Positions 39,655 to 50,319 of a stretch of DNA of 64,000 nucleotides are shown here, piece after piece (position 1 is the first letter of the stretch; every line of letters starts with the position of its first letter). A program made the position numbers and the translations under genes. The stretch covers positions 124,001 through 188,000 of the forward strand of contig JANXCS010000004.1 of assembly GCA_025060105.1 (NCBI GenBank), given 5' to 3'. The notes under the pieces were generated by a model that worked only from the letters and a program-made list of their open reading frames with translations, searched no databases and was not told the origin of the DNA. The stretch comes from Pseudothermotoga sp. (GTDB lineage: Bacteria; Thermotogota; Thermotogae; Thermotogales; DSM-5069).

Positions 39655-41229
39655 TCATTTCTTCTTGATCTTTGTGAAGTCGAACACGAGAGTGTAACCC
39701 TCGCAAGCTTTTTCGAAATCTAAAACATCGTTGCTGACTGCCCAGAATATCACAGGCTGGTACAGCATAACGAACGGACTTTTGTATATCCAGTACTCTT
39801 GAAGTTCTTTATAAAGTTGGGCGCGTTTCACTGGATCTTGTTCTATGCCTGCTTTCTCCGCAAGATCAGCAGCGTAGTCATCGTACCACATGTTGCGCCA
39901 CGCAAGTTGTCTAACTCTATGATTAGCGAAAGGTTTCGCCAAGGCGTCTGGATCTGGATAATCGATACCCCAACCTGCTATGATCATTTGGTGACCTTGT
40001 TGACGGTATTTTGCGTACATTTCACCTGACGGCATGAGCACGATGTTTGCCTTGATTCCAATTTCCGCCAAATTGGCTTGAACAACTACTGCCTCGTTTC
40101 TCCTTATTTCTGTGGTGCTCGTGATCAACTCAACTTCGAATCCGTTTGGATAACCTGCTTCTGCGAGCAGCTGCTTTGCTTTCTGCACATCTCGCTTGAA
40201 TGGATTGAGCTCGATGTAACCAAAATAACCTATAGGCATAAAGTTCTGGTTCAGCACTGCAAATCCTCTCATAACTGAATTGATGATCGCATCGTAGTCG
40301 ATAGCATATTTGATCGCCAAACGTACCCTTTCATCCTTGAACGGTCCCCAACCAACATTCATGGCTATGTATTCGTTTGCTTGACCTGGCGTGGTGACCA
40401 ATCTTATGTTCGCAGGCTTAGTTGCCTTGAGCTGGGCAGCTTGCTCTGTGGTGATGTTCCAAGCTATGTCCACATCACCCTTTTGAACAAGTAAAAACTG
40501 TGTGGTTTCCTCAGGTACATCACGAATGATGATCCTCTTCAGTGGTGGCTGACCTGCCCAGTAATGTGGATTGGCCTCGAGAGTAACGATTTCTCTTCTC
40601 TTCCATTCAGTTATGACGTATGGACCAGCACCAGCTGCTATCGATTTATCGGTCAAATAAGCTTGCCCAAGGTCGTTGTTCACCTCGTTTGCCAGAACGA
40701 CCTTCTTGTTCACCACACCTCCCCAAGGTGGTGCGATGATCGAAAGCACGATGTTTGGAGCCAACGGCTTCGTCTTCAAAACCACCGTGCGCTCATTTTC
40801 AGCATAAATCGTTTGTTCCATGTTGTCTGCAGTGAGACCTAGGGACTCGAACAACCAAGCCGGAGACTTTCTTATCTTGAGAACTCTTCTGAAAGAGAAC
40901 ACCACATCTTCCGCTGTGAGTGGATCACCGTTGGAAAACTTCAAACCCTTTCTCAAGTAGAACTTCCACACTGTACCATCTGGTGAGACTTCCCAACGCT
41001 CAGCAAGATCAGGAACGGGTGTTATAACACCATTGACAGGCTCTAGCTTCGTCAAGCCGGAATACGCAGCGGTCACAACGGCTGCGGCGAACGTTTCATA
41101 ACACACTGCAGGATCGAGTGTGATGAATATCTCTGTGTTAGCAGCGATGACGAGCGTATCTTTAGGCGTTTTGGCGAAGGCTACGACGAACATGAACAAC
41201 ACGAGTGTCCAGACCAACAATTTTCTCAC
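39655..41229 (-). CDS. Peptide/solute-binding protein of ABC transporter, system 1
   Basis: A 524-residue family 5 extracellular solute-binding protein. The signal peptide MRKLLVWTLVLFMFVVAFA ends in AFA with no lipobox cysteine, so it would be a soluble periplasmic protein. DTLVIAANTEIFITLDPAVCYE, RKGLKFSNGDPLTAEDVVFSF and LLAEAGYPNGFEVEL are typical of peptide binders. The ligand could be an oligopeptide or, as in several Thermotoga homologues, an oligosaccharide. GTG start follows GGGGGG. Confidence 0.92.
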   Translation of the reverse strand: MRKLLVWTLVLFMFVVAFAKTPKDTLVIAANTEIFITLDPAVCYETFAAAVVTAAYSGLTKLEPVNGVITPVPDLAERWEVSPDGTVWKFYLRKGLKFSNGDPLTAEDVVFSFRRVLKIRKSPAWLFESLGLTADNMEQTIYAENERTVVLKTKPLAPNIVLSIIAPPWGGVVNKKVVLANEVNNDLGQAYLTDKSIAAGAGPYVITEWKRREIVTLEANPHYWAGQPPLKRIIIRDVPEETTQFLLVQKGDVDIAWNITTEQAAQLKATKPANIRLVTTPGQANEYIAMNVGWGPFKDERVRLAIKYAIDYDAIINSVMRGFAVLNQNFMPIGYFGYIELNPFKRDVQKAKQLLAEAGYPNGFEVELITSTTEIRRNEAVVVQANLAEIGIKANIVLMPSGEMYAKYRQQGHQMIIAGWGIDYPDPDALAKPFANHRVRQLAWRNMWYDDYAADLAEKAGIEQDPVKRAQLYKELQEYWIYKSPFVMLYQPVIFWAVSNDVLDFEKACEGYTLVFDFTKIKKK

Positions 41230-41261
41230 GCGTTATCCCCCCTCTGTCTTAGTTTGAAAAA

Positions 41262-41290
41262 ATTGTACCACACTTGGGACTCCTCTTCAA
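41262..41290 (-). promoter_or_regulatory. Promoter of ABC system 1
   Basis: On the minus strand TTGAAG (41285-41290) and TACAAT (41262-41267) are 17 bases apart, about 33 nt upstream of the binding-protein start codon. Confidence 0.75.
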
Positions 41291-41402
41291 GTACTCTTCT
41301 CAAAAATACGAAGATCCAGAGGGGAGAACTCATCAAAATCTTCATTTTGAAAAAAACAAACGTTGTTGCAGACTATCTTTACAATTTTTCAGGTTTACCG
41401 AT

Positions 41403-41408
41403 TATAAT
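41403..41408 (+). promoter_or_regulatory. -10 element of a candidate promoter for the rhomboid gene
   Basis: A perfect TATAAT at 41403-41408 lies 19 nt before the rhomboid TTG. The best -35 (TTTACA, 41378-41383) is 19 bases away, which is long. The short leader supports the TTG start at 41428 rather than any codon further upstream. Confidence 0.5.
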
Positions 41409-41427
41409 CTTCAAGGGAGGGCGCAGC

Positions 41428-42117
41428 TTGAGAAATCTCAAAATCACCCACGTTATCCTCGTCATGAACGTGTTGATCGCTATATTGATGTTGATGACGA
41501 GAACGACTTCTATGCTTCGAAACGAAGCCTATCTCCTTTTGAAGTTCGGTGCCCAGTTCGGTCCACTCGTGGCGAGAGGAGAATGGTACAGAACCATCAC
41601 CGCGATCTTCGTTCATGGTGGAATTTTGCACCTTCTTTTCAATTCGTACGCTTTATTCTATTTCGGTACCATAGTTGAATCCATATATGGCTCGGAAAAG
41701 TTCGTAGCCTCATATCTTTCGTCAGGTCTCATTGGGAACATTGCGACCCAGTTGTTCTACTATGGTTCCGTCTCAGTAGGCGCAAGTGGGGCGATATTTG
41801 GACTCGTTGGTATGCTCTTCATTTTGGGTTTCAAACGTGACGCACCTTTTTATGCAAGATCCTTCACAGGTTATGCTTTACTTCCCATGATCATTTATAA
41901 CGTCGTGTTTGGTTTCCTTCCAGGAAGCGGCATAAACAATGCGGCACATCTTGGAGGCTTCTTTGCAGGTGTACTGATAGGCTATCTCGTTAAACCCCTG
42001 CCGGCTATTTACAGCAGAAGGAGATCTATGTTTTATGCTTGGAGAACGATAGCCATCATGTTTGGAGCGCTCGTTGTGTACAGTTTCTTCATGTTAATCT
42101 TCCATTCAGCAGTGTGA
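41428..42117 (+). CDS. Rhomboid-family intramembrane serine protease
   Basis: A 229-residue six-helix membrane protease. The catalytic serine is in SVGASGAIFGLVG and the catalytic histidine in NNAAHLGGFFAGV; the first-loop FVHGGILHLLFNSYALFYFG motif is also present. The frame extends upstream to 41254, but GGGAGGG lies 6 nt before the TTG at 41428 and a TATAAT lies within the upstream extension, so the short form is preferred. Rhomboids cut single-pass membrane proteins; the substrate is unknown. It converges on the HPr-kinase-like gene with 2 bp between stops. Confidence 0.92.
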   Translation: MRNLKITHVILVMNVLIAILMLMTRTTSMLRNEAYLLLKFGAQFGPLVARGEWYRTITAIFVHGGILHLLFNSYALFYFGTIVESIYGSEKFVASYLSSGLIGNIATQLFYYGSVSVGASGAIFGLVGMLFILGFKRDAPFYARSFTGYALLPMIIYNVVFGFLPGSGINNAAHLGGFFAGVLIGYLVKPLPAIYSRRRSMFYAWRTIAIMFGALVVYSFFMLIFHSAV

Positions 42118-42119
42118 AG

Positions 42120-43838
42120 TCAAAGCTCTTCAATCAGCTTCAGCAAAGCTTTTGCGGCGAGCATCGTTCCTTCTTTTTCGTACCCCTCAACACCGAGCAT
42201 CGTTCTTATCTCTCCAACTTTCACACCTGTTTCGAACATTTTCTTGAGGTAATATTCTGCGAGCTTGTGGTGTTCTTTTTGCCTCTGAACGGCTCCAAAA
42301 GGATTCGCAAAGTAAGACGTGACGAGACCATTTTCTGAGGTGGTGCCCTTACTCATTCTCTTGCCTTCCGAAAAGACCCTCAACGCATCCTCCACATTGT
42401 CGAAGAAAACTATCCTGTCTTCGTCTTTGTCGACTTCAGTGTAGTTGTTCGCGTAGAAGAAGAAATCGATGTGTGTTGGTGTGATTATCTCGCTGTAATT
42501 GTTGAAAGGTACTATAACTCTTGCGTTTATTTGATCTGGATTCATGAATATGCTTCTGTCCATGGTTGAATAAGCATATCCAGGTGGTAAGTCATCGAGT
42601 CTAACGAAAGCTCCCGTTTCTGTACCGTATGCGACCACATGACCATCCATCACAGTAAGACTTCCCATGTCATCTATGATCGTATCTACTTGAGCAACTT
42701 CTTCGAGCCTACTCAGAGCGTCCAACGTTTCACTCTTTCCTGCTCCACTGTCACCCACGAACATGGCAACGGCCATCTTCCCATTCTTCAGAAGTATACG
42801 GGCCATCGAACCGTGTATGGGCAATCTCCCCTGATCGATCCTGATCAAATTGTGAAGAGTGAGAGTTGTTTTTTTCATATAACCAAAATAATCGTTCTCG
42901 TCTAAAGCAGGAATGATACCAATATACATTTTTCCGTCCTTGAAGATCACACCGTTTTTCCAACGATCGTTGAAACCGGGGATCCTCTCAGGCTCTAGAC
43001 CGAAGATCAACATTCCGTCAGGCTCTCTCTGCCTCAAGTCCCTCGGACTAGCAAGCTCGAACAGGTTAGCCAAACCAGCTCCGTGTGCAAGAAAATCCAC
43101 ATGCACCAAATTGTAAAACAGTAGATCACCAACGAAAATAGCGAATCTGAACCAGTCTTTAGGATTCAACTCGACTTTGTCCAGTATTTTTTCTTCTACT
43201 ACCGGAACGACTCCTTTTCTCTTGTTCGATTTTGTATAAAAGATCACGGGAGGATCGAACACGGCCCCCCAAACGGTTGGAATCCTCCTGATCCAAGGTG
43301 CTCGATCGAACTTTTCATCCTCCAATTCTTCAGCGAGAAAAACCACCTGAGCACCGCTCGGAAGCTGTCTCATCACTGTTGGGAATGAGTTGGAGATGTT
43401 CATCACCAACTCGCGGTACAAATTTTTAATAACGGCTTTGAACTGATCGCTGATCTCTGTGACTGTGTACTCGATGCTCGCGCGTCTCACATGATCATCG
43501 GAATATTTTTCATAACGGACCATGAACCTGTGTTTCGATCGCCAGAATGAATAGAAAGCTTCGACAAATTTCTCGAGATCACGCGGATTCACATAATAAA
43601 TGATGTTCGTTAACTCCTTTATGTTTCTCATGGTCAAAAGATGCAGATATTCAACGAACCTTCTCAAATCGTAATCGCCGTCCAATCTGAAAGCGTTCAA
43701 AGCGTTGAGCAATGGACTTCGCTTCTCTCTGAGTATCTCTATGAACTCTTTCAGCAATTGCTCAAACTTTTTCTGTGCCATGATCTGACTGTAGTTCGTG
43801 TAGATAACAGAACCATCTATGACAACGCTGCGACTCAC
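42120..43838 (-). CDS. HPr-kinase/PEPCK-like P-loop protein of unknown function
   Basis: A 572-residue protein not assigned to a named enzyme. Residues 340-375 read PIHGSMARILLKNGK then AMFVGDSGAGKSETLDALSRL, close to the HPr kinase/phosphorylase pattern (HG...GDSGxGKSE); the P-loop begins at residue 362. The acidic follow-up VDTIIDDMGSL could be the Mg2+ site. The 330-residue N-terminal part, mixed helix and beta, has no recognised domain. The GTG start follows AGGTG by 6 nt. No HPr or PTS gene is near. It may be a PEPCK-fold kinase or GTP/ATP-using carboxykinase relative; the function remains open. Confidence 0.6.
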   Translation of the reverse strand: MSRSVVIDGSVIYTNYSQIMAQKKFEQLLKEFIEILREKRSPLLNALNAFRLDGDYDLRRFVEYLHLLTMRNIKELTNIIYYVNPRDLEKFVEAFYSFWRSKHRFMVRYEKYSDDHVRRASIEYTVTEISDQFKAVIKNLYRELVMNISNSFPTVMRQLPSGAQVVFLAEELEDEKFDRAPWIRRIPTVWGAVFDPPVIFYTKSNKRKGVVPVVEEKILDKVELNPKDWFRFAIFVGDLLFYNLVHVDFLAHGAGLANLFELASPRDLRQREPDGMLIFGLEPERIPGFNDRWKNGVIFKDGKMYIGIIPALDENDYFGYMKKTTLTLHNLIRIDQGRLPIHGSMARILLKNGKMAVAMFVGDSGAGKSETLDALSRLEEVAQVDTIIDDMGSLTVMDGHVVAYGTETGAFVRLDDLPPGYAYSTMDRSIFMNPDQINARVIVPFNNYSEIITPTHIDFFFYANNYTEVDKDEDRIVFFDNVEDALRVFSEGKRMSKGTTSENGLVTSYFANPFGAVQRQKEHHKLAEYYLKKMFETGVKVGEIRTMLGVEGYEKEGTMLAAKALLKLIEEL

Positions 43839-44279
43839 TCACCACACCTCTCTGTGAGATTTATATCCTCATTCTCTTTCGCTAGCTGGACATATTGTCG
43901 ACGAAGTCGTTACAAGGCGTTTCTGAAGAGAAAATAGGGGCAAGAACAATCAGATCAAACGACCGGCTGGGAGCATTAAACCAAGAACCTTTGTGAACAA
44001 AAGCCAAATGGCCCACACAACAACAATGGAATATAATCCACCTTTCAAAATGTCGACCCACAAGACTTTCTCCTTCAAAATCAAAATGGTTTTTTATTTC
44101 AATTTTCTCGAGCAACGGTTAACCACAATCAAACAAAAAAGTTTTTCACACGAATTTCTTGGAAATTACCGCCCTATTTTTCCCTATCTCTGTTTTCCGC
44201 ACCTTTTTACTCGTTTTCATTACCTGTTATCACTTTGGTAGAATGTTTGTTGTGAAGGTATTAGGTGGAGGTGACCTAC
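43839..44279. other. Divergent intergenic region, AT-rich, no gene seen
   Basis: About 440 bp between the start of the HPr-kinase-like gene and ABC system 2. It is visibly more AT-rich than the coding sequence around it. Its right end holds an extended -10 for the ABC operon. Open frames here are short and lack ribosome sites. No tRNA or clear RNA fold was recognised. Confidence 0.6.
44236..44244 (+). promoter_or_regulatory. Extended -10 promoter of ABC system 2
   Basis: TGG-TAGAAT lies 35 nt before the first permease start codon. Only weak -35 sequences (TTTTCA or TTTCAT) are found upstream, as expected for an extended -10. Confidence 0.5.
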
Positions 44280-45317
44280 TTGATAACATACATTATCAGA
44301 AGACTGCTCTTGCTACCTTTGATACTGTTCGGTATATCCCTGATCGTCTTTGGCATGATCCAAAGCCTTGGACCAGATAGACTCCTGGCTGCTTACGTGA
44401 ATCCGGGAGTTTTGGACAAACTGACACCAGTTCAATTAGAAAAGATAAAGCAAAAGTATGGATTGAGCGATCCTATGATGATTCGTTATGTTAAATGGCT
44501 CAAGAACACATTGCAAGGCGATCTTGGATGGTCGTTGGTGGGTAAACAACCCGTCAGGGATGCCATACTGAACAGACTACCTTGGACGGTAGAGCTCGCT
44601 CTGTACTCAATCGTACCTGTGGTTTTCGTGGGAGTGTGGCTTGGTGTTATCGCTGCTGTGAACCGAGATAAGTTTCTTGATCACTTCGTCAGGATTTTTG
44701 CCGTTGTTGGTTGGAGCTTTCCTGACTTTGTTTTTGGATTGATCGTACTCATGATTTTTTACAGTGTGCTTGGGTGGTTCCCACCGGGGAACCTCAGCCT
44801 TTGGGCCGATCAAATCGTCAAATCTCCTGAATTCAAACGGTTCACATCCTTGATAACGATAGATGCTCTTTTGAATGGACGATTCGACGTGTTCGTTGAC
44901 GCTGTACGACACTTGATCGCCCCGATCATCACGTTGTCTTGGCTTTGGTGGGCGTACTTATTGAGAATAACGCGCTCTAGCATGCTAGAAGTGTTGACGA
45001 AAGAATATATCAGAACAGCCAGAGCCAAAGGACTGTCAGAAAGGATCGTCATAAACAAACACGCAAGGAGAAACGCGATGATACCGGTAGTCACGGTGGG
45101 AGGAGCCATGGTCATTCAACTGTTCGCCGGTACTGTGATCGTCGAAACAGTTTTTAACAGGACCGGCATGGGAAGCTTCACAGCCACAGCAGCAACACAA
45201 TTAGATTATGCATCGATAATGGCCTCCACACTTTTTTATTCGTTCATACTCGTCGTTGGAAACCTTGTGATAGACATACTGTACGCCGTGGTTGACCCGC
45301 GTGTCAGACTCGGTTGA
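44280..45317 (+). CDS. Oligopeptide-type ABC transporter permease (OppB-like), system 2
   Basis: A 345-residue permease starting MITYIIRRLLLLPLILFG, with KYGLSDPMMIRYVKWLKN, the EAA region RTARAKGLSERIVINKHARRNAMIP and the end DILYAVVDPRVRLG. TTG at 44280 is preferred, since GGAGGTGA lies 5 nt upstream; the GTG at 44265 lies in that ribosome site. The periplasmic loop near residues 165-200 is longer than in system 1. Confidence 0.9.
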   Translation: MITYIIRRLLLLPLILFGISLIVFGMIQSLGPDRLLAAYVNPGVLDKLTPVQLEKIKQKYGLSDPMMIRYVKWLKNTLQGDLGWSLVGKQPVRDAILNRLPWTVELALYSIVPVVFVGVWLGVIAAVNRDKFLDHFVRIFAVVGWSFPDFVFGLIVLMIFYSVLGWFPPGNLSLWADQIVKSPEFKRFTSLITIDALLNGRFDVFVDAVRHLIAPIITLSWLWWAYLLRITRSSMLEVLTKEYIRTARAKGLSERIVINKHARRNAMIPVVTVGGAMVIQLFAGTVIVETVFNRTGMGSFTATAATQLDYASIMASTLFYSFILVVGNLVIDILYAVVDPRVRLG

Positions 45318-48427: not shown

Positions 48428-50281
48428 TCACTCTTCCTTCCACAATGTGTAATAATCAGCTGCACCAGGCATCATTGGATTGTAGTACCAACCTTTGACC
48501 CAGCTCCTTCTCACGTTCAAACTTTGAGGTTCATAGAGTGCAACACCAAGTACATGCTTGATCGCAAACTCTTGTACTTTCCTGTAGATATCCACCCTGA
48601 CCTTGGGATCTGTTTCTATGGCAGCTTTTTCTATGAGTTCGTTACAACTCTTACCACCGAGCTCGGGTGTGGGTGTCGAAACGAATTTTTTGAAATTCTC
48701 GCCCTGAGCGAAACCATAAGTACCTGCAGAATGATAGTATGTCTGGATGAAGTTGTGGGGGTCTGGATAGTCCGCAAGCCAGCCTATGATGAACGCTGGT
48801 AGATATCCTTGCTTGTAAGAAGTCAAATAGGTTGGCCATTGTTCACCGCGCACCTCGATCTTGAACTTCGGATTGATCATTTCAACGTAGGTTTTTATCA
48901 TTTCAGCCACAGTCCTTCTCGCTTCGTTACCTGTGTTATAAAGTAAAGTGAGCTTGAAACCTTTTCTCCATACCTCTCCATTCCATGCTTTCTTGAACTC
49001 TTCGGTAGCCTTGGTGATGCTGAACTCGAACATGGGCAATTTTGGATCGTAACCAAGTAAACTGCTGGGTAAGTCCGCGGGCACTCTGTTTCCAAGACCG
49101 CGCAGAACGTCCTTTATCACAGCATCGTAGTTTATAACGTAGGCAAACGCCCTTCTAACATGCTCATCACTGAAGAAGTCTGGTGGGATACCGTTGCCAT
49201 CCAGTTTACCAGAACCGATGTACTTGCTATCCGGCTTCACGTTCCAATTGAAGTGGAGTGATGTAACGCTTATAATAGGAAGACCCTTAGTGATGGTTAC
49301 ACCAGGCATGTTCTCAACTTGTGGCAGATATTGTGATGGAACAGCAACAATATCTGCATCTCCCTTTTCGAGCATGGCTCTCCTAGTAGACCACTCTTCG
49401 ATCGTCCAGATGATCACCCTTTTTATCTTCGCTGGTCCTTTCCAATAACCATCAAATCTTTCGAGAACAACCCTCATCTGAGCCCTGTCCCACTCGACAA
49501 GCTTGAACGGCCCTGTTCCCATTGCCTTCGCGTACAGAGGAGATTCTTCCTTTGGAAGGTCCCAATGTTTCCACCAAGTGTCAGGTTTACCATCCCAACA
49601 ACCTTGCTGAATGGCCCACTGTTTGTTCAAAATCATGCCCCAGTTCGCAAAACCACATATGATTGAAAGGAATGGACCAAATGGTCTGGAGAGCTTGAAG
49701 ACCACACTGTCACCACTGACTTCAATGGCAGGATCGATGTAGTCCGTGTAAACTTTGATCAGCGCATCACGATACTGTGGCAAAGGTTCTTTCGTCGTTC
49801 GATCAAGTAATTCGCTGAGAGGTTTGCCCACAACTTTTTCAACGAATTCATCCAACGAATAAACCTCGAACAGAGCCTCCCAAAGCATCCACATGGGTCC
49901 ACCAGATGGGTCGAAGAGCAAACCTCTTTCGAAGCTGTACTCGACGTCTTCTGGCGTCAACACTGCACCGTTGTGGAATTTCACATTTTTCCTGATCGGG
50001 AAGATGTACGTCTTGCCACCATCTTTGATGAGACCATTCTCCAAACTTGGTACAGCTGTGGCCAGTCTCGGTGCCATTTCAACAACACTGGACCCAACAT
50101 ACTCGATCAAACACTCATAGATCTGCCCTAAAACTTCCCCACTCGCCGTATCATAAGCGAAGTGTGGGTCCAATGTGTCTGGCTCGCCGATCGTGAGAGT
50201 TATGATGGTGTCAGGATTCTTGATCTGCGCAAAGATCAACGTTGTCGCGATTAAAACCAACACGATCCAAAATCTCCTCAT
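48428..50281 (-). CDS. Peptide/solute-binding protein of ABC transporter, system 2
   Basis: A 617-residue family 5 solute-binding protein, larger than the system 1 protein. The signal peptide MRRFWIVLVLIATTLIFAQ has no lipobox. TIGEPDTLDPHFAYDTASGE, RKNVKFHNGAVLTPEDVEYSF and ADYPDPHNFIQTYYHS are typical of peptide binders. ATG 50281 follows GGGGGG and gives a proper signal peptide; the frame to 50314 adds residues upstream of the ribosome site. It converges on ABC system 2, with which it very likely works, but has its own promoter. Confidence 0.92.
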   Translation of the reverse strand: MRRFWIVLVLIATTLIFAQIKNPDTIITLTIGEPDTLDPHFAYDTASGEVLGQIYECLIEYVGSSVVEMAPRLATAVPSLENGLIKDGGKTYIFPIRKNVKFHNGAVLTPEDVEYSFERGLLFDPSGGPMWMLWEALFEVYSLDEFVEKVVGKPLSELLDRTTKEPLPQYRDALIKVYTDYIDPAIEVSGDSVVFKLSRPFGPFLSIICGFANWGMILNKQWAIQQGCWDGKPDTWWKHWDLPKEESPLYAKAMGTGPFKLVEWDRAQMRVVLERFDGYWKGPAKIKRVIIWTIEEWSTRRAMLEKGDADIVAVPSQYLPQVENMPGVTITKGLPIISVTSLHFNWNVKPDSKYIGSGKLDGNGIPPDFFSDEHVRRAFAYVINYDAVIKDVLRGLGNRVPADLPSSLLGYDPKLPMFEFSITKATEEFKKAWNGEVWRKGFKLTLLYNTGNEARRTVAEMIKTYVEMINPKFKIEVRGEQWPTYLTSYKQGYLPAFIIGWLADYPDPHNFIQTYYHSAGTYGFAQGENFKKFVSTPTPELGGKSCNELIEKAAIETDPKVRVDIYRKVQEFAIKHVLGVALYEPQSLNVRRSWVKGWYYNPMMPGAADYYTLWKEE

Positions 50282-50319
50282 CTTCTCAACCCCCCAACAA
50301 TATGTACCGCACAAAGCAA

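Follow-up and report, generated by a model that had tools for sequence, protein, structure and literature searches.

The question raised by this locus is what kind of protein carries an HPr-kinase-like P-loop on a chain of 572 residues: a kinase acting on a novel target, or an enzyme of the phosphoenolpyruvate carboxykinase (PEPCK) fold, the two options named in a sequence-only reading of the same DNA. In the window, i.e., the whole 64,000-nucleotide stretch of Pseudothermotoga sp. DNA that was analyzed, the gene occupies positions 42120..43838 on the minus strand and comprises 572 codons plus a stop, with a GTG start. According to the ORF list and the translation, the frame contains no internal stop codon and is thus a real 572-residue ORF, as had been read; its homologues span the full length, and the motifs HGSMARI...GDSGAGKSETLDAL are present in the product. 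Since the gene has no second copy in its own genome of 1.92 Mb and its homologues range from 91% to 33% identity, it lies far beyond chance. Residue numbering used here begins at the Ser following the GTG codon.

Convergent to this gene, with 2 bp separating their ends, lies a rhomboid-family protein gene (41254..42117, plus strand; PF01694, 131 bits), which is mentioned as a neighbour and for which no functional link is claimed. Genes of oligopeptide ABC transporters were recognized by Pfam on both sides, namely two SBP_bac_5 genes at 39655-41229 and 48428-50314 and a BPD_transp_1 gene at 44265-45317. These matches bear out the earlier description of a gene convergent with a rhomboid protease and placed between peptide importers.

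Scanning of the window protein against Pfam and NCBIfam yielded no model above its own cut-off. The closest approach was PF01293 (PEPCK_ATP), which over residues 314-376 scored 22.1 bits where 26.5 are required, while the NCBIfam PEPCK model NF006821 reached 30.1 bits against 369, and DUF4914 (PF16260) matched the P-loop region weakly (residues 335-379, 11.2 bits, cut-off 25.7). A clear match to an already characterized full-length family was therefore not found. The HprK models PF07475 and TIGR00679 did not match the window protein at all, and among its relatives the best HprK scores were 14.8 of 33.3 bits for PF07475, in a Tenericutes relative, and 15.2 of 240 bits for TIGR00679. When the window protein was used as a single query, the PDB sequence search returned no meaningful match; with the family profile, the top matches were ABC-transporter P-loops, together with one PEPCK at E 0.96. 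At E ≤ 0.001, the matches in the viral library were two giant-virus PEPCKs only. Titles and abstract openings in the mainly open literature revealed no publication on the family. Among annotated records, one relative, located on an L. fermentum plasmid, was labelled phosphoenolpyruvate carboxykinase.

Because PDB sequence searches gave no meaningful match, the fold assignment rests on structure prediction and profile alignment. The AlphaFold2 model of the window protein (19 sequences) had a pLDDT of 88.2 and a pTM of 0.88. When it was compared with the PDB by Foldseek, all of the best 50 matches listed were PEPCKs, with a best E of 1.1e-16. VIA-align superposed the model on the PEPCK of T. cruzi with Z 22.8 and rmsd 3.3 over 349 aligned residues, and on that of T. 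thermophilus with Z 22.6 and rmsd 3.5 over 348, the superposed part of the model beginning near residue 170 and reaching residue 571. This part of the chain is accordingly modelled as a complete two-domain PEPCK fold, with a PEPCK-type N-terminal domain at approximately residues 170-315 (42891..43328, minus strand; VIA-align, hhalign, conservation) and a PEPCK-type catalytic domain at approximately residues 316-571 (42123..42890, minus strand; Foldseek, VIA-align, hhalign).

Profile alignment pointed in the same direction. The core, from residue 171 on, scored 75.2, 83.8, and 84.4 in hhalign against alignments of canonical, class b, and class c PEPCKs, respectively. As a control, the columns of the core were shuffled twenty times against each of the three alignments, yielding maxima of 22.7, 22.8, and 25.7 in the same order. 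As judged from these alignments, the homology of the core to the PEPCK/HprK superfamily exceeds chance. Together with the predicted structure and the PEPCK active-site residues that have been kept, this supports the PEPCK-fold option of the sequence-only reading.

The same reading had assigned some 330 N-terminal residues to a part without known domains. About half of that stretch is covered by the PEPCK-type N-terminal domain, and only about 165 residues are extra. These form an added helical domain (approximately residues 1-165; 43341..43838, minus strand), as delimited by the model, by conservation, and by the lack of PEPCK profile similarity, hhalign scores against the PEPCK alignments being 13-17. 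Modelled separately, this domain was mostly helical with a pLDDT of 75, and several of its residues (W98, R99, R103, Y140, R141, and R156) are near-invariant. Foldseek gave no match for it at E ≤ 0.001. VIA-align with residues 1-165 retrieved mostly globins, some phycobiliproteins, and one RsbR N-domain, with a best Z of 5.8 over 108 residues; the globin-fold likeness of the modelled domain is below a trustworthy level and is taken as a lead only. No invariant His was present in this domain among the aligned homologues, so haem binding by it is unlikely.

Conservation of active-site residues was evaluated in 92 distinct homologues, 47 from Thermotogota and 45 from the Tenericutes/Bacillota side; PEPCK positions are given in E. 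coli PckA numbering, with correspondence established by sequence alignment. In a MAFFT alignment of the four classes, Y207, G209, K212, K213, H232, S250, K254, D268, D269, N331, and R333 were kept in all 16 rows of the family, and the counterparts of Y207, K212, K213, H232, K254, D268, D269, N331, and R333 were invariant in 92/92 homologues. In the window protein, the PCK-specific motif YFGYMKK (residues 316-322; 42870..42890, minus strand) supplies Y207, K212, and K213, with Y, K, and K in 92/92, and K321 and K322, likewise in 92/92, form the XKK of the PCK-specific domain. H341 (42813..42815, minus strand; 92/92) takes the metal-ligand histidine position H232, the kinase-2 acidic pair D388-D389 (42669..42674, minus strand; 92/92) corresponds to D268 and D269, and N437-A-R439 (42519..42527, minus strand; 92/92) corresponds to N331 and R333. 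The catalytic Asp and His residues, whose lack would have spoken against the sequence-only reading, were thus present in every aligned homologue. R206, in the PEPCK-type N-terminal domain (codon 43218-43220, minus strand), was also invariant in 92/92; it equals E. coli R65 by one hhalign profile alignment, with which the MAFFT alignment disagrees.

The P-loop itself, GDSGAGKSE (residues 361-369; 42729..42755, minus strand), is of the HPr-kinase type, and GDSGxGKSE was found in 92/92 homologues, so that the P-loop reported earlier is real. A motif scan of the family gave GKSE in 92/92 and GKTT in 0/92, whereas GKTT was found in 9/9 canonical PEPCKs and in 10/11 of class b, and GKST in 15/15 of class c. 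In the four-class alignment, the T255 position is Ser and the K288 position is Arg. By sequence alignment, the adenine-pocket positions R449 and T455 hold E/K/T and A, and a loose RX5TR pattern somewhere downstream of the P-loop was seen in 3/92 homologues. The HprK signature (I,L,M)E(I,V)RG(I,L,M,V)G(I,V)(I,L,M), a consensus taken from the legend of PMC2937029, occurred in 0/92. The likeness to an HPr-kinase core noted earlier consequently holds for the P-loop and the HG region, but does not extend to the signature or to any HprK profile score above cut-off.

When compared with ATP-dependent PckA (PF01293; structures from E. coli, T. thermophilus, and T. cruzi), the protein shares the two-domain fold, YxGxxKK, the metal His, the P-loop Lys, the DD pair, and N331/R333. 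It differs by GKSE in place of GKTT, by lacking the RX5TR adenine pocket, by Arg for K288, by a shorter C-terminus, by the N-terminal addition, and by its sub-cut-off profile score. With HprK it has in common GDSGxGKSE, the HG preceding the P-loop, and the DD pair; however, HprK has about 300 residues and the window protein has the whole PEPCK architecture. The best profile partners of the core were class c and class b PEPCKs, which occur in Thermotogota too. These types were recognized through comparison of their motifs with Table 2 of PMC2684135, a table that includes the S. bovis/L. casei and A. pernix types, with motifs fitting class c (542-556 aa) and class b, respectively; no row of it holds the residue set of the window-protein family. 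Both classes differ from the family in forming separate tree groups, in keeping the NTG and T455 positions, and in having GKST or GKTT loops. In a quick tree, a long and fully supported branch separated the family from the three other PEPCK classes; the program warned of long-branch joins, and the two phyla did not separate inside the family. It was filed as a separate family of the superfamily, since neither the ATP-PEPCK motifs nor the HprK signature and profiles matched.

Strong matches to the family were found in 81/103 Thermotogota genomes; at E ≤ 0.001 the tally is 86, and in five of these genomes the sole match is weak and belongs to another PEPCK type. In the second sample, drawn from the phylum of a Tenericutes MAG, the family was present in 62/295 genomes, the tally at E ≤ 0.001 being 121 with weak P-loop matches included. 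It was absent from 7/7 genomes of genus g13. These seven genomes, as well as G057 and G089, had none of the PEPCK-like genes sought, while most of their relatives have one to three types. In G041:C7:528057-529809 (in L116), the homologue lies in three pieces in different frames, either a broken gene or a sequencing error.

Thermotogota hold two more divergent PEPCK types, class c (L064-L079) and class b (L054-L063 and L129). Over the 103 genomes, canonical PEPCK was counted in 4, class b in 10, and class c in 49. The 81 genomes with the window-protein family divide into 54 with another PEPCK type and 27 without one, the window genome belonging to the latter. In the second sample, 8/17 genomes with canonical PEPCK also carry the family. 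Presence and absence thus gave no support to replacement of PEPCK, the association with the canonical type in that sample being positive, with an odds ratio of 3.7 (p 0.012, no correction for relatedness). PEP carboxylase (PF00311) was found in none of the 103 Thermotogota genomes, and a pyruvate carboxylase/oxaloacetate decarboxylase subunit in 98 of them. HprK over cut-off was found in 0/103, a weak negative because the same search was silent on the B. subtilis control too.

The reading that we favor, with a probability of about one half, is that the window protein represents a distinct family of the PEPCK/HPr-kinase P-loop superfamily and is a PEPCK-type phosphotransferase that carries an extra helical domain at its N-terminus and uses a small carboxylate, either oxaloacetate or something close to it, as substrate. 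From the invariance of the metal, P-loop, acidic-pair, and substrate-side residues we infer an active PEPCK-like phosphotransferase, and the retention of N331/R333-type residues favors a small carboxylate over a protein as its substrate. A divalent metal would be bound by K322, H341, and D389, and the phosphoryl donor (ATP, GTP, or PPi) would be placed on the P-loop with K367, S368, and D388. Oxaloacetate or a close relative would be held by R439, N437, Y316, and probably R206, and the phosphoryl group would then be transferred between donor and substrate. That other PEPCKs coexist with it, that it lacks the ATP pocket, and that it has gained a domain all suggest a role other than that of PckA. 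Against this explanation stand the GKSE loop, which is a protein-kinase loop, and the 27/81 genomes without another PEPCK type, in which the family could itself be the PEPCK for that reason.

Next in likelihood comes a true PEPCK, followed by a protein kinase of the HprK type. The former would be a divergent but ordinary enzyme interconverting oxaloacetate and NTP (or PPi) with PEP, CO2, and NDP (or Pi), in gluconeogenesis or oxaloacetate supply. In its favor are the fold, the nearly complete PEPCK reaction centre, the standing as sole PEPCK-like gene found in a third of the family's Thermotogota genomes, the window's own among them, and the missing PEP carboxylase; we nevertheless hold it doubtful, as other PEPCK types stand alongside in the 54 genomes, the canonical association is positive, GKTT and RX5TR are not matched, and nearly all genomes already have the pyruvate carboxylase/oxaloacetate decarboxylase subunit. 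Phosphorylation of Ser/Thr on another protein by an HprK-like kinase, or kinase/phosphorylase, is unlikely. It draws on the universal GDSGxGKSE, which matches the loop shown for L. casei HprK in the legend of PMC2937029 and the K-S-E order given for M. pneumoniae HprK in PMC11204831, and on the superfamily that HprK and PEPCK have in common, entered by Cheek et al. 2005 as a single kinase family (PMC1079889). The missing signature, the HprK profiles under cut-off, the retained substrate-side N331 and R333 with the PCK-specific KK, and the presence of a whole two-domain PEPCK all argue against it.

Somewhat more speculative, and improbable as a whole, is a surviving intermediate that links PEPCK and HprK, a PEPCK-fold phosphotransferase with an HprK-type loop, a lost adenine pocket, PPi or another donor, a substrate other than oxaloacetate, and gating by a fused globin-like sensor domain that may be haem-free. 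That catalysis has been lost and the protein serves as a sensor or regulator is very improbable: the loss of the ATP-pocket residues and the gain of an N-terminal domain speak for it, yet the residues needed for catalysis do not vary in either phylum, and drift would not have preserved them. Hardly credible is replacement of homoserine kinase (ThrB), an idea that came from a Tenericutes gene row and was rejected. In L015, L017, and L018, thrC, hom, asd, and lysC are close to the family gene or directly next to it, but a separate ThrB seems to be encoded in that row, namely a protein resembling a GHMP-type ThrB as judged from its start (L015:11091-11963), and many Thermotogota hold both the family gene and a strong ThrB match (e.g., G035-G037 and G047-G052).

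When considering the consequences, a gene of this distribution in two phyla passes no Pfam or NCBIfam cut-off, and the sole annotated record found says PEPCK, though two defining ATP-PEPCK motifs are absent. If the protein is not a PEPCK, metabolic models that rely on the label are in error; should it be one, it represents a new nucleotide-binding type. The combination, within a single chain, of traits from PEPCK and from HPr kinase bears on the relationship between a metabolic-enzyme fold and a bacterial protein kinase.

Gene neighbours, the comparison of which had been proposed for Thermotogales, changed by lineage and indicated no pathway; across the regions from Thermotogota and the second phylum, no neighbour family recurred in all lineages. 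The Pseudothermotoga group has the rhomboid gene beside the family gene. In the Thermosipho group the neighbours are an RNase III domain protein and PmbA/TldD proteins, the RNase III one also in Fervidobacterium. In family f10, six regions had EngB-like GTPase and Sir2 neighbours, and 10/45 Tenericutes/Bacillota regions had signal peptidase I. The EngB-like GTPase gene lies directly upstream in L101, L102, and L106-L109 of a Thermotogota family and, in the other phylum, in one genome (L180). It is preceded by lon in L101, L102, and L180, the order in L180 being trigger factor, lon, engB, and the family gene; of the 7 lon-linked regions in the second set, 6 have lon on the opposite strand, and the arrangement carries no functional claim. 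In two genomes, the family gene converges on a class b PEPCK gene (G008:C1:1440917-1443926 in L093 and G010:C156:80175-83287 in L092).
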